Assembly (NCBI GenBank): GCA_018263435.1
Contig: JAANXD010000071.1
Span: 2,063 to 36,236, forward strand
From: Candidatus Scalindua arabica
GTDB taxonomy: Bacteria > Planctomycetota > Brocadiia > Brocadiales > Scalinduaceae
DNA length: 34,174 bases
Direction: 5' to 3'
Shown here: positions 11,800 to 21,964 of the stretch, piece by piece
How positions within the stretch are numbered: position 1 is the stretch's first letter
Layout: every line of letters starts with the position of its first letter
Translations under genes and position numbers: made by a program
The notes under the pieces: model-generated
Told to the model about the DNA's origin: nothing
The model's input: only the letters and a program-made list of their open reading frames with translations
The model's database searches: none

Positions 11800-13536
11800 A
11801 TGGAAATTAATAGAAATACGATAATTAAAAATCTGGTCAAGAAGCACCCGGAAACTCTGGCAGTATTCAGGAAATATAATCTTGTTGTAGCCGGAGGTGT
11901 AAGAGGGCCTAATGAACCCCTGGCATTCTTTGCAAAGGCTCATGAGGTAGATTACGACGAAATACTTAAAGAATTAAAAGAAGCTATTGAAAAGGGTGTA
12001 GACGAAAACACTGAGACGGTAGAGCTGGTAGAAGACAAGGTATATGAAAAATTCTTTAAGACAGCTATCTTAATGGCACTAACAATAGGTGTGGCAGTTG
12101 GCGCAATAGTATTAACTTATATAGGTAAAACCCAGAATTTCCATTATGTACTTCATAAATTTGTCCAGACACATGGACATGCTCAATTGTTTGGATGGGT
12201 GGGTCTTTGTATCATCGGTTTTGCATATTATATCGTTCCCCGGGTTAAAAACGTAGAACTCAAATATCGAGAATTAACAACCACCTGCTTCTGGCTGATA
12301 GTCACAGGAACCGTTATAAGGATATTTGCCCAACCTTACGCTAATGAATCAACAAACGTACTCCTACCAATATCAGGGTTATTAGAATTTATGGCAGTCG
12401 CGTTGTTTGCCTTCATTATTCTCAGTACCGTCCTTGCAAGTCAGGAAAAGAAAGAACCATACGACAAATTTATAGTGGCAGGGGTATCATGGTTTCTGGT
12501 TTGCGCTTTTATGAACCTTATTATGGATGTCGTTATGTTTTTCACAAATACAAATGAAATTGCAAGAACATTTTACAGCCCTTTTGTACACGTATTTCTC
12601 CTAGGTTTTACTTTCATGTTCATATTTGCAGTAAATATAAGGACGGTGTACGCCTTCCTTGATGTTGGAACAGCAAGGGTACGTGCCATAAATACTACAT
12701 TCTGGCTGCTAAATCTAACTCTTCCCATATACTTTATTGCTCATTCTTTTAATTATAACTCTCCATTTTTGTTGAAAGTCTCATACCTTACGATTTACCT
12801 GGTAGCGTTCAGCATTCTACTATTTGTTTACGGTATCAGGATCTTTGAGAAGTCTACAAAGGAACTCGATGATGTTGTAATGGATAGAAGTTATTCAAAG
12901 ACTATCAGAACTGCTTATGTCTGGTTGATTATTGGTGTGCTTATACTTGGGGCAAAACCTTTCCTTAAGGCATTTTCGGAACCTCAGTATCTGTTTCATG
13001 GTGCAGCCAATCACGCCATTGCCGTTGGATTCGTAACTTTGATGATTATAGGATACGCATCAAAGATGGTTCCAACTTTTAAGGGTGTTGGCATGTACAG
13101 CATAAAACTTGCAGATTTATCATTTTATCTTATAAACATTGGCTGTTTTCTCCGGGTTTCTACTCAGATAATGATTGGACTATCAAATGATTCTTATTAT
13201 TCTCTCATTGGGTTTTCAGGCTGGATCGAGTTTACGGCAATCGGAATATTCGGTTACAACGTATGGAAGACGATGAACGCAGAGGATGAAGATGAAATTG
13301 AAGAACCACAGGAAGCTTTAACTGAGATTACAGCAGACACAAATATTGCTAATGCAATAGATCAATATCCAGAAATACTGGATGTGTTCCTGGAATTTGG
13401 GTTTAAACAACTTGGTAACCCTGTTGCACGGAAGACTGTTGCAAAAATGTTTACCATTAAACAGGCAACAAAGATACATCCGGTTGAGATAGATACTCTA
13501 CTCAAAGCCCTGAATGAAAAAATTAAAAAATCGTGA
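11800..13536 (+). CDS. NnrS-like multi-helix membrane protein flanked by DUF1858-type domains
   Basis: Residues 1-66 resemble the DUF1858/ScdA_N helical domain (NLVKKHPETLAVFRKYNL, then FAKAHEVDYDEILKEL), but glycines replace its usual cysteines. About 12 membrane helices follow (88-485). They carry HGHAQLFGW (His125, His127), FVHVFLLGFTF and NHAIAVGFVTLMIIGYASKMVP; the histidine placement resembles NnrS and, more distantly, heme-copper oxidase subunit I. Residues 505-578 form a clear second DUF1858 domain (LGNPVARKTVAKMFTIKQA). NnrS proteins are linked to nitric-oxide metabolism and metal/heme binding, so a nitrogen-oxide role is an inference. The stop overlaps the next gene's GTG (GTGA), so the TPR protein is probably a translated partner. 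An unknown oxidase-like role remains possible. Confidence 0.72.
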   Translation: MEINRNTIIKNLVKKHPETLAVFRKYNLVVAGGVRGPNEPLAFFAKAHEVDYDEILKELKEAIEKGVDENTETVELVEDKVYEKFFKTAILMALTIGVAVGAIVLTYIGKTQNFHYVLHKFVQTHGHAQLFGWVGLCIIGFAYYIVPRVKNVELKYRELTTTCFWLIVTGTVIRIFAQPYANESTNVLLPISGLLEFMAVALFAFIILSTVLASQEKKEPYDKFIVAGVSWFLVCAFMNLIMDVVMFFTNTNEIARTFYSPFVHVFLLGFTFMFIFAVNIRTVYAFLDVGTARVRAINTTFWLLNLTLPIYFIAHSFNYNSPFLLKVSYLTIYLVAFSILLFVYGIRIFEKSTKELDDVVMDRSYSKTIRTAYVWLIIGVLILGAKPFLKAFSEPQYLFHGAANHAIAVGFVTLMIIGYASKMVPTFKGVGMYSIKLADLSFYLINIGCFLRVSTQIMIGLSNDSYYSLIGFSGWIEFTAIGIFGYNVWKTMNAEDEDEIEEPQEALTEITADTNIANAIDQYPEILDVFLEFGFKQLGNPVARKTVAKMFTIKQATKIHPVEIDTLLKALNEKIKKS

Positions 13537-14840: not shown

Positions 14841-17084
14841 TCATCTTTTCAGTCTTTCCAGCAAGAACAAGATCTCGGCAGTATCAGTATAATCCAATCC
14901 CACATCAGAGGCCAATCCCACCTCACGAGAACCTGCAAGGATAGCCTGTAATTTCGAAACCAGCAATTTTCCTGACTCAGGTATGTTCGGGTCACTGGCT
15001 ACCTCGTCCAATTGTTTTTTTATCTCCTCCGGTCTCTGTTGCTTCAAGGCATTTTCAAACAAGGCACATAACCTGGCACTCGGACTTTGATCTTCACCAC
15101 CATCGCGGCGGCAGACAAGATATAATTGAATTGCCTGCTCCCGTGCTCGTGCGGCAGCTTCTTGATTACCATCAGCCAGTTCAATATCACGCAGTTTGTC
15201 CCATGCTCTCCATGGTTCGACATGATGACCATAGGGCTTGAAGCATTCAATAGCCCTCTGGATTTCCTGCCTTGCTTCATCATAGCGTTTAAGCATAATC
15301 AAGGTAATAGTAAGATTACCACGGATGCGCCCCTCATTTGCCATGTCATTGATCTCTGTATATTTTTCTGCTGACTGCCGGAAGGAAATCACTGCGTCCT
15401 CTGACCGCCCTATTTTAGCATAAAGGTTTCCAAGCCGCCCCAGACTCCTGGCCTCATCCAACGGACTTCCCTGCTGTACATTAACGGCAAGTGATTGTTG
15501 AAATGCCTGCTCTGCCTCTTCAAATTGACCGATTTCCTCAAATACCACACCCTGCTGCTGCAAGGCAACTGCGGCCATATTTAGCTCTCCAAGATTCTCA
15601 AATATTTCCCTGGCCTCGTTATGTGCCTTGATGGCGTCTTCGTACCGTCCCTGAGAAAAACGTACTGTACCTAGTTGGCCTTTTCCTACTGCAATATGCC
15701 TTTTATTCTTTAATTCTTCAGCTATTTGTATGCTTTCTTCATAGGCAGCTGCAGATTCTTCTAAACGGCCAAGATCCAACAGGCACTCTCCTTTTTTAGC
15801 AAGTGATGCGGATACCATTTTTCTGGCAGCATTACTATCTGCCTCACCGGCTAGTAAGCTAAAGTCCTTGTGTGCCGCATTGATTGATTTAAGCGCATCG
15901 TCAAAAGCGCCTCCCATTCTCAGTACACGCCCAACCAGTAAATTGGCTACCGCGATATCATAATCTGCACCCTCGTATACTTCTTCGCCTGCCTTTATAC
16001 ATTTATCCAACAGTATCTGCGCAACGCTTAATGCCTGTGGAAAATTCCCGGCATCCAATAATCTTTCAACCCTCATACTCAAGATTTCAAATCTGGCATG
16101 CTCCCAACCCGCCGACTTTTTCTCTTCCTCTTCTATAATCGCCTTTACTTTTGCCAGGGTTTGAGGTTTGTCCAATTGCATAGTCAATTGCTCAAGTATT
16201 ACCGCCCTATCCAGAGTTATCTCAGGGATTCCCTGTGCCTGTATATGTTCCAGAGATTTTATCAAATTAGGCAGTTCCAGAAGTGTGAGTGAATCCGCAA
16301 GCCGTGAATCCTCAGATTGTTGCTTATACAGAAACTCACTCAACTGCCGCAAACTCTCAGCCCATCTGGCCTTGTTTGTGTCAAGTACGGCTTCATCCAA
16401 TTCCTGATACAGGTAAGAACACAAGGCAGGATGAAAGCGCAGGAAACCATAAGGCATTGGTTCTGCCAGGCCAGTCTCCAGTAATTTACTAACCAGTAAA
16501 TCCCTTTCATCTTCATTTAACTCTAAAACGTTTGTTATATTTGAAATACTGCTGCCTCCCTGAAACACGCCCAGAGGCTTGATTTTCTCCCGGATTTCAG
16601 GTGACAGCCGACGCAGCGAGTTTTCCACACCATCAAAAAGCGATCTTTTCTGTTTATCAGACAGGCGCTCTCCCAATGCAACAAATATTAGCGAGGTAGC
16701 TTCACTCACGCCACCCGAACCAATCTGAATCTTTGTTCCAATCGGTTCCTTCCCGAAAAACGTACTTAATATTGCAGGCTCAACACCTTCCCTAATTAGT
16801 GGAATCACTTTGTAATTGTTCCCTCCTTTATTACTTACCTCCAGCGCATATTTTGTCTCTTTCAAAACACTGAGAGAATTTATCGTCTCGGGACCAATCG
16901 CAACAATAAAAGCACGGGCTTGTTCAATAGCCTGCTTTGTTTCACATTCTAACTTATCACCAGGGGCTGACTCACGTGAATCAGTACGGATGTTCAATCC
17001 TTCGTTTTCTAAACCCTTGCGTAGAGCGTTTACAAACTCACCGTCTTGGGTACTGTGTGAAATAAAGATATAATTGCTTTTCAT
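14841..17084 (-). CDS. TIR domain protein with winged-helix and TPR regions
   Basis: Residues 1-105 form a TIR-type domain. Box 1 is YIFISHSTQD. Box 2 includes TDSRESAPGDKLECETKQAI and ARAFIVAIGPET. A glutamate in SVLKETKYAL (Glu76) sits where NAD-cleaving TIR enzymes have the catalytic Glu. Residues 145-235 (SLRRLSPEIREKIKPLGVFQ, then PYGFLRFHPAL) resemble the winged-helix part that follows the NB-ARC ATPase in large STAND proteins, but no Walker A or B motif is present. From about 340 to 690 there are TPR repeats. Bacterial TIR proteins include phage-defence NADases and scaffolds, so defence is an inference. It starts at ATG 17084 with an AGAAAGG site. The gene looks richer in G+C than its neighbours, which could indicate transfer. 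Confidence 0.75.
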   Translation of the reverse strand: MKSNYIFISHSTQDGEFVNALRKGLENEGLNIRTDSRESAPGDKLECETKQAIEQARAFIVAIGPETINSLSVLKETKYALEVSNKGGNNYKVIPLIREGVEPAILSTFFGKEPIGTKIQIGSGGVSEATSLIFVALGERLSDKQKRSLFDGVENSLRRLSPEIREKIKPLGVFQGGSSISNITNVLELNEDERDLLVSKLLETGLAEPMPYGFLRFHPALCSYLYQELDEAVLDTNKARWAESLRQLSEFLYKQQSEDSRLADSLTLLELPNLIKSLEHIQAQGIPEITLDRAVILEQLTMQLDKPQTLAKVKAIIEEEEKKSAGWEHARFEILSMRVERLLDAGNFPQALSVAQILLDKCIKAGEEVYEGADYDIAVANLLVGRVLRMGGAFDDALKSINAAHKDFSLLAGEADSNAARKMVSASLAKKGECLLDLGRLEESAAAYEESIQIAEELKNKRHIAVGKGQLGTVRFSQGRYEDAIKAHNEAREIFENLGELNMAAVALQQQGVVFEEIGQFEEAEQAFQQSLAVNVQQGSPLDEARSLGRLGNLYAKIGRSEDAVISFRQSAEKYTEINDMANEGRIRGNLTITLIMLKRYDEARQEIQRAIECFKPYGHHVEPWRAWDKLRDIELADGNQEAAARAREQAIQLYLVCRRDGGEDQSPSARLCALFENALKQQRPEEIKKQLDEVASDPNIPESGKLLVSKLQAILAGSREVGLASDVGLDYTDTAEILFLLERLKR

Positions 17085-17240
17085 AATGCCTTTCTAAATT
17101 TAAATTAATTTATATATTTTAAAGTACTGATGATACCACACCACGAATAATGTCTCATGTGGCACAAATGACAACACATCATACAAAATATTTTAACATC
17201 TTACCCCTCAAAAATGGTAACTTAAAAGTCGTAACTTTAA

Positions 17241-20641: not shown

Positions 20642-21312
20642 AATAATACTCCACACAAATCTCTCAGGGACTTTAACGCACCGGCAATATCCCAACTCTC
20701 CCTGTTCCTGGTAGTAGCAATATTGGAAATGCTTCGAATCTGCAAGACCGGAATCCCAAAGTCATTACCAAACTTCAATGCTCCCGCCCCCTCCATGGAC
20801 TCAACCTCGACTCCGTATTTCTCAGTCCGTAAAGTACCGGTCGCCTCTTTTCCGGTAGCAGTATTCACCGTTGCCCCGGTAACAACGGGAAGGGCCTTTA
20901 AAGAATCCCCAAATAAATCATTGAAAACCGTTATATTCTTACTCTCATAATACTCAATCTCTCCCAAGTCCAAATCATTCAGGCTTAAGAAAGATCCGGA
21001 ATCTTCTGCTCCAAGATCAGCCATAACCTCTTTCTCAATAATAACAGGAGCACCCAGCACTTTCACATCTTCCCTTGCATCGGCATAAGCTCCAGCAATA
21101 CCAACTTGCAAAACCCTGTCAACAGGAGTATTCAGGTGGAACCTTACCAGAGAGGCATAAGTGTTCAACACCCCTATTCCTGTCTCCAGAAAAAGCATAT
21201 TCCCCTTTTCAAATCCGGTGCCAACATTCTCAATATCTGACGAGCTTATAGAAGGAAAAATCCCCATAAGTTCTAGAGAAGTGGCTGTACAAATAAGTGT
21301 TTTCATATCCAT
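20638..21312 (-). CDS. mqnB: Futalosine hydrolase
   Basis: The 224-residue nucleosidase-like protein carries CTATSLELMGI at the start, ETGIGVLNTYASLVRFHL, and VLQVGIAGAYADARE. The late motif VESMEGAGALKFGNDFGIPV leads into QIRSISNIATTRNRESWDI. These identify a nucleoside phosphorylase/hydrolase fold in the MqnB branch. It removes hypoxanthine from futalosine in menaquinone synthesis. Its ATG shares one base with the vapC stop (TAATG) and no ribosome-binding site is visible, so translation may depend on vapC. A second ATG two codons later is possible. mqnD follows with a GTGA overlap. Confidence 0.9.
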   Translation of the reverse strand: MDMKTLICTATSLELMGIFPSISSSDIENVGTGFEKGNMLFLETGIGVLNTYASLVRFHLNTPVDRVLQVGIAGAYADAREDVKVLGAPVIIEKEVMADLGAEDSGSFLSLNDLDLGEIEYYESKNITVFNDLFGDSLKALPVVTGATVNTATGKEATGTLRTEKYGVEVESMEGAGALKFGNDFGIPVLQIRSISNIATTRNRESWDIAGALKSLRDLCGVLL

Positions 21313-21707
21313 TAGATTTGTACGGTTTTTAAGTTAAGATATTTTTCTAATGGGACGAAATCTCTATCATCGTGTAGAAGTGAAAAGTTGTTATGAATAC
21401 AGAAACTACCAATAATTACATCTATTGTTTTACGTATTGTAACCCCTCTTTTTCTGAGTCGACGGTAATTTAAAGCGCTTTTAATTGCCATCTCCTGGCC
21501 CAGCATCTCCATTACAGGGAAATCTAGAAGTAAACTTTTGGCAGCTTTAAAGTCTTTATCATTTTGAAAACCTTGAAGAACTTCAGTTAATATAATATCT
21601 CCTATTAGAATAGATTGGTTTCCAAGAGCTGAATCTAACCAATCAGTTTTTGGAGTTGTTCTACCATTGAAATAATCAATCCAAACAGAAGAGTCTATTA
21701 AAATCAT
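21312..21707 (-). CDS. vapC: VapC-type PIN-domain toxin ribonuclease
   Basis: This 131-residue PIN protein has the acidic active-site set: Asp5 in LIDSSVWID, Glu42 in ILTEVLQGF, Asp96 in KTIDVIIGSFC, and the DDRDF segment at 113-117. VapC toxins cut tRNA or rRNA and are held in check by VapB. The gene starts with an ATGA overlap of the vapB stop, as usual in vapBC operons. Unusually, its own stop overlaps the start of mqnB, so the toxin sits first in a transcript that also encodes menaquinone enzymes. All active-site residues are present, so the toxin looks intact. Confidence 0.92.
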   Translation of the reverse strand: MILIDSSVWIDYFNGRTTPKTDWLDSALGNQSILIGDIILTEVLQGFQNDKDFKAAKSLLLDFPVMEMLGQEMAIKSALNYRRLRKRGVTIRKTIDVIIGSFCIHNNFSLLHDDRDFVPLEKYLNLKTVQI

Positions 21708-21898
21708 TTGTCTAACCGCATCTTGTCAAGATTTCCAACCCATTTTAATTTGCCGCGAAAATTTCTGACCTTGGCCTGTCGTTTAAACTCTACTAATAAT
21801 TTCAGTCCAGCTTCAATTGTATCTCTTTTTGTTTGAAACCCTGACAATTTAAGAGCTGTTTCCATTAATTTATCATCAATCACAACATTTGTTCTCAT
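21704..21898 (-). CDS. vapB: VapB-type antitoxin
   Basis: The start ATG 21898 is set by an AGGAG site just upstream; a longer open frame from 21964 would run through the promoter and operator. The 64-residue product begins MRTNVVIDDKLMETALKLSG and continues TKRDTIEAGLKLLVEF, a ribbon-helix-helix DNA-binding domain of the common VapB type. The C-terminal part (RNFRGKLKWVGNLDKMR) should wrap the toxin. It binds and neutralises VapC and represses its own promoter, for which an operator is visible at 21918-21945. Confidence 0.92.
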   Translation of the reverse strand: MRTNVVIDDKLMETALKLSGFQTKRDTIEAGLKLLVEFKRQAKVRNFRGKLKWVGNLDKMRLDK

Positions 21899-21917
21899 TT
21901 GCAATCTCCTATTAATA

Positions 21918-21964
21918 TGTGTATATTTAGTAAGTATTATACACATAGAAACAGATAATAACAA
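21918..21964 (-). promoter_or_regulatory. vapBC promoter with operator palindrome
   Basis: On the minus strand TTGTTA (21959-21964) and TATAAT (21936-21941) are 17 bp apart. A perfect inverted repeat, TGTGTAT with ATACACA (21918-21924 and 21939-21945), overlaps the -10 box. That is where VapB repression would act. The antitoxin start is about 20 bp further on. Confidence 0.75.

Follow-up and report, generated by a model that had tools for sequence, protein, structure and literature searches.

On the prevailing view, a STAND receptor depends on its NTPase as an on/off switch. The window analysed here, the whole stretch of 34,174 nucleotides from Candidatus Scalindua arabica, carries a gene (14841..17084, minus strand) for a protein that joins a TIR domain to a STAND-like winged helix and tetratricopeptide repeats (TPRs) with no NTPase between them, and so raises the question of how such a protein arose and what its TIR domain could still do. 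The gene is an intact ORF of 747 aa with an ATG start, four bases 5' of which lies a probable ribosome-binding site, GAAAGG (17089..17094). It is a single gene: the cysteine-synthase-like gene upstream is divergent and the TPR gene downstream is convergent.

All features of the protein are encoded on the minus strand. The TIR domain occupies residues 1-140 (16665..17084) and is recognised by Pfam as TIR_2 at residues 6-104 (1.7e-16, above the cut-off). The stretch of residues ~141-149 (16638..16664) is the junction at which, in the alignment to a long relative described later in the text (P0002), the TIR tail joins the NTPase/winged-helix boundary. The winged helix itself covers residues ~143-228 (16401..16658); it has no Pfam match and is assigned by its homology to the post-NTPase region of relatives and by a confident structure model. 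It is followed by a helical connector and TPR superhelix (residues 229-660; 15105..16400), with multiple TPR families detected over residues ~384-654 (TPR_12, 1.6e-29), and by a conserved helical C-terminal region (residues 661-747; 14844..15104) that has a mean identity of 75% among the short forms and is kept in the long forms too. The region of winged helix and TPRs is 39-42% identical to the long forms. No NTPase family matches the protein in Pfam at E<=0.1, a CHAT peptidase domain is likewise absent in Pfam, the P-loop is absent and no part of the protein is left in which an NTPase could hide.

For residues 1-335, a model based on an alignment of 65 sequences (mean pLDDT 90) replaces an earlier full-length model from five sequences that was poor over residues 140-330. 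In it the TIR fold leads at once into a helix, next comes a winged helix that includes a beta hairpin (strand 177-179, helices 180-187 and 191-204, hairpin 207-210/214-217), and then come helices leading into the TPRs, so that the TIR runs straight into the winged helix without a P-loop NTPase of the NB-ARC/NACHT type. The best structural matches of the TIR model are SPARTA TIR-APAZ and plant RUN1 TIRs (VIA-align Z 16-17), and it superposes on 8ifl with Z 16.7 and an rmsd of 2.7 over 128 aligned residues. Foldseek matches at E<=0.001 include the STAND-TPR protein 6mfv, CED-4 and the apoptosome, as a winged helix of STAND type would lead one to expect. The likeness of the TPR arm to LGN/Pins (Z ~32) is one of shared fold only. 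An earlier note, made from the letters of the window alone, had read the protein as a TIR with a STAND-like winged helix and TPRs lacking the NTPase; Pfam, homology and model bear this out. The structure prediction and Foldseek search that it proposed found TIR and winged helix, and the hidden divergent ATPase that it named as a refutation was found neither by Pfam at E<=0.1 nor in the model.

Full-length orthologues with the same domain order and length occur in 12 of the 17 Scalinduaceae genomes searched, and all are frame-intact. The same intact layout in 12 separate genomes rules out an assembly or frameshift artefact. A 13th genome of the family has only a 48-aa C-terminal fragment. The best-matching named records are from Candidatus Scalindua, and among the genomes listed in the phylum sample no other member of the order gave a match at E<=1e-20. 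Searching with phmmer and the window protein alone returned mainly TPR chains; a plasmid search gave only partial, TPR-driven matches, and the viral contigs and phages searched held no relative. Beyond the Scalinduaceae, the same C-terminal half sits in proteins of ~1270-1680 aa from many phyla, typically with the order TIR-CHAT-STAND NTPase-winged helix-TPR in ~1450 aa. An N-terminal TIR was detected in 32 long relatives, 29 of which have a canonical P-loop motif that no short form has. Pfam analysis of four relatives (P0002-P0005) gave TIR, CHAT, STAND/AAA-type NTPase and TPRs in three full-length examples, and CHAT, NTPase and TPRs in the fourth, in which the start of the protein is not resolved. 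The FxSxx-COOH TPR family NF040586 scores below its cut-off on the long relatives.

Against the 1484-aa P0002, the window protein aligns to residues 18-156 and 882-1481 and to nothing between them, and the gap falls exactly on the CHAT domain and the NTPase. Aligning whole short proteins with whole long ones misplaced the second half of the TIR, setting it against the NTPase, so the comparison was made domain by domain. A maximum-likelihood tree built from 51 rows of the winged helix and TPR region, and rooted at the midpoint, places all 12 short forms in one clade (100/100) nested among the long forms, with long forms from Aminicenantes as its successive sisters (99/93, then 100/99). Common descent with the TIR-CHAT-STAND-TPR receptor family follows from this position of the short clade, and one loss accounts most simply for a clade nested in this way. 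These comparisons show that the ancestor of the window gene encoded a receptor with the order TIR-CHAT-STAND NTPase-winged helix-TPR, from which one ancestral in-frame deletion in the Scalinduaceae took out ~725 residues (CHAT and NTPase), bringing the TIR tail up against the winged helix. Short sequences of PD type lie at both edges of the gap, in the TIR tail (ALGERLPDD in L044) and at the NTPase end (YPDERERSLF in L045), and it is possible that the deletion took place between such microhomologies. Of the two origins offered in the earlier note, deletion of the ATPase or a distinct TIR-TPR class, the former is well supported, as one old and fixed event; the alignments also support loss of the CHAT protease-like domain together with the ATPase, which lay beyond what that note could see.

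Two apparent NTPase-less forms outside the Scalinduaceae were rejected: L044 is a long form interrupted by a stretch of N, while L073 (Methylobacter sp. KS41) is missing its N-terminal part and has transposase-like sequence immediately upstream. None was confirmed by our pattern-based scan, which is incomplete, so such forms may exist. The Competibacteraceae loci (L068-L094) form a distinct branch of TIR-CHAT-STAND-TPR proteins, in most of which C replaces the TIR serine (IFICH), and three of them (L074, L080 and L089) have no canonical P-loop match. One Scalindua genome (G395) has, in addition to its short form, a long form as a separate gene (L136; G395:C52:9000-21433, minus strand). The TIR of this long form retains SPWVKKE, and its TPR part contains one in-frame TAG, which is either decay or an assembly error.

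The possibility that the lost domains are supplied in trans, the window protein being half of a split system, is very improbable. The CHAT and NTPase part of P0002 matches nothing in the window genome, and the TIR-CHAT-NTPase part of L045 finds there only TIR. NB-ARC is absent elsewhere in this 102-contig draft, in which absence is not absolute, and no NTPase gene is adjacent. What speaks for a split system is the co-occurrence of long and short forms in one Scalindua genome and a partial CHAT protein in the window genome, located where a contig ends (L144:3-587, G000:C24). This C-terminal part, the remainder of which is missing from the assembly, is unrecognised by the CHAT of the relatives and could be from a TPR-CHAT or other caspase-like protein.

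The earlier note described the gene as isolated and higher in G+C than its neighbours, which is correct as stated, and suggested that it may be an acquired defence or signalling gene. Its G+C is ~45% against a window norm of ~38-40%, but other genes of the window reach 45-47% and the 12 orthologues lie at 42-47%, so the raised G+C is no sign of acquisition. In 10 of the 12 genomes its neighbours are the cysteine-synthase-like gene and the TPR gene (immediately adjacent in nine, 3 kb off in one), and with locus and G+C both shared a recent acquisition can be set aside. A defence role finds no support in the setting either. The flanking genes are rmlA-like, ispE, spoVG, ilvB, rsmE, manC-like, nnrS-like, a cysM-like synthase, futalosine hydrolase and VapC, and PADLOC run on ten neighbours gave only one weak, TPR-driven match; the neighbourhood is one of housekeeping genes and not a defence island. 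The VapC-family toxin (21312-21707, minus strand; NF047959, 1.3e-49) overlaps a small upstream ORF (21704-21964, minus strand) that may encode its antitoxin. The gene at 11800-13536 (plus strand) encodes an unusual fusion of an NnrS/COX1-like membrane protein and a DUF1858 domain that scores twice.

Whether the TIR could still cleave NAD depends on its active-site residues. In AbTir, S140, D167, W204 and E208 are all required for NADase activity, whereas TcpC depends on the Asp and Glu and can do without the Trp, its W240A mutant staying active; the Trp is required for the cyclic product 2'cADPR, as reported from Manik et al. (PMC11374754). In SARM1, W638 and E642 mutants lose activity, mutation of W638 cutting it (PMC8266388), and SPARTA TIRs hydrolyse NAD(P)+ via Glu77 (PMC11156904). 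The glutamate proposed as catalytic in the earlier note, Glu76 (16857..16859), is the counterpart of AbTir E208 and SARM1 E642; it lies in a well-conserved helix alpha-C and is invariant in 12/12 short and 31/31 long forms, so the absence from homologues that would have told against the proposal is not seen. Ser9 is present in all 12 short forms. Asp35 (16980..16982), the counterpart of AbTir D167 and SARM1 D594, is kept in the window copy and in all 31 long forms but in only 7/12 short forms, the other five having Val; its spacing to Glu76, 41 residues, is that of D167 to E208 in AbTir. The Trp of the WxxxE motif (position 72; 16869..16871) is present in 31/31 long and 0/12 short forms and is Ser in the window copy, and the Trp at position 33 (27/31 long, 0/12 short) is replaced there by Arg. 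Loss of the WxxxE Trp is no proof of a dead enzyme, as the feature is not universal: the SPARTA TIR 8qlo aligns a G at this position, yet SPARTA TIRs are active. Cyclic-ADPR production by the short clade is nevertheless unlikely, and the five orthologues without Asp35 are probably impaired NADases, while the window copy, with Ser9, Asp35 and Glu76 kept, may retain some NAD chemistry.

Substitution rates single out the same domain. Mean identity among the short forms is 58% in the TIR, the least conserved part, against 73-75% elsewhere, and the sensor arm of winged helix and TPRs is the most conserved. The ratio of dN in the TIR to dN in the C-terminal region is 1.80 (IQR 1.58-2.00) in short forms and 1.01 (0.91-1.17) in long forms, values from non-independent pairs that serve as descriptions rather than tests; identities compared at matched C-terminal divergence differ in the same way. 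Among short forms, dN/dS has a median of 0.28 in the TIR and 0.15 in the remainder of the protein, so both parts are under constraint, and 22 TIR columns besides Glu76 are invariant. Taken together, these comparisons show that the TIR changed alongside the deletion and that the product was retained intact under purifying selection, for the most part at a single locus. Conservation of the sensor arm is easier to reconcile with a stable ligand from the host than with a target in an arms race.

The best explanation overall, held to be about as likely as not, is that an old deletion gave rise to a TIR adaptor or assembly module that works without NTP, under control of the TPRs, and whose NAD chemistry is weak or altered. 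Without NTP switch and protease, the winged helix/TPR arm would bind a stable host partner and itself directly control, without nucleotide, the ability of the N-terminal TIR to associate. The TIR would act mainly by assembly with itself or other TIR proteins, and across the clade its NAD chemistry would probably have disappeared or have dwindled to a slow hydrolysis that yields no cyclic product; partner, ligand and assembly are all putative. The adaptor reading is favoured by change specific to the TIR, namely the dN ratios and the losses at Trp72 and Asp35 given above. Counting against it are the invariant Glu76 and Ser9 and the conserved alpha-C helix, which fit retained catalysis, and the activity of SPARTA TIR-APAZ and TcpC W240A without the Trp.

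These last points make an active NADase the main rival, since the active SPARTA TIRs also lack the Trp, although on balance it seems rather unlikely. Binding of a trigger by the TPRs would lead to TIR assembly and hydrolysis of NAD+ to ADPR with no NTPase switch, as in SPARTA after guide-target binding. The direct effector-sensor fusion that the earlier note envisaged stands as a layout, and the Ser9, Asp35 and Glu76 of the window copy, the closeness of the model to SPARTA TIRs and continued purifying selection on the TIR are all consistent with activity. A working NADase is made doubtful by the loss of Asp35 in five orthologues and of Trp33 and Trp72 in all, by a TIR that is the fastest-evolving part, its dN nearly doubled in short forms only, by a housekeeping neighbourhood without defence genes and by a sensor arm that is conserved rather than diversifying. 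The low identity and eroding motifs of the TIR might instead suggest that it is vestigial and slowly eroding, selection acting on a winged helix/TPR region that works alone. This is improbable given a dN/dS still at ~0.28, 23 invariant columns including Glu76, an intact TIR in 12/12 members over deep divergence and no TIR-less orthologue found. More tentatively than the adaptor reading, we suggest that the protein is a domesticated NLR-like immune receptor, fixed as an NTPase-free TIR-winged helix-TPR family protein in which the TIR is an adaptor or altered enzyme in normal physiology. If true, bacteria would have in it a counterpart of the scaffold TIRs and of the truncated NLRs of plants.

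The family offers a natural, long-lived loss of the STAND switch that can be traced to one origin and set beside long-form relatives, and that is matched by a change in the active site of the effector. It allows a direct test of what a winged helix and TPR arm can do without nucleotide, and of whether loss of the switch forces taming of the effector. Our literature search, largely without subscription papers, found no paper treating Scalindua and TIR domains together. Surveys of prokaryotic conflict systems include TIR, caspase-type and AP-ATPase-TPR effectors in the relevant passages (PMC7159879), and a CHAT+TIR protein is among those reported (PMC10907252); these passages of the two papers describe no NTPase-free derivative. 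PDB entry 9m0n (chain A, 824 aa), named 'tetratricopeptide repeat protein', starts with a TIR domain and has no accompanying paper that we could find; it is possibly a TIR-AP-ATPase-TPR structure useful for comparison.

Among known systems, the nearest are the long TIR-CHAT-STAND-TPR proteins of Aminicenantes (L045), Planctomycetota (P0002) and Scalindua (G395:C52), which have the same order at both ends and the same descent. The window protein is 42-59% identical to long relatives in the TIR and 39-56% in winged helix and TPRs, but these are proteins of ~1450-1650 aa with CHAT, P-loop NTPase and WxxxE, whereas it has neither domain nor the Trp. With the TIR NADases AbTir and SARM1 the window copy shares the TIR fold, the catalytic Glu and the counterparts of Ser9 and Asp35; it differs in Ser for the WxxxE Trp and Arg at position 33, a Trp in most long forms. 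SPARTA TIR-APAZ, the closest TIR by structure, likewise lacks this Trp and has no NTPase in the TIR chain, but is activated by APAZ and a short Argonaute without winged helix or TPRs; the window protein has no APAZ, and there is no Argonaute among its annotated flanking genes. The TIR-NB-ARC-TPR/AP-ATPase conflict effectors, as described in survey passages (PMC7159879), likewise combine a TIR effector, a winged helix and a TPR sensor, but unlike the window protein they have their own ATPase switch and lie in conserved conflict operons.
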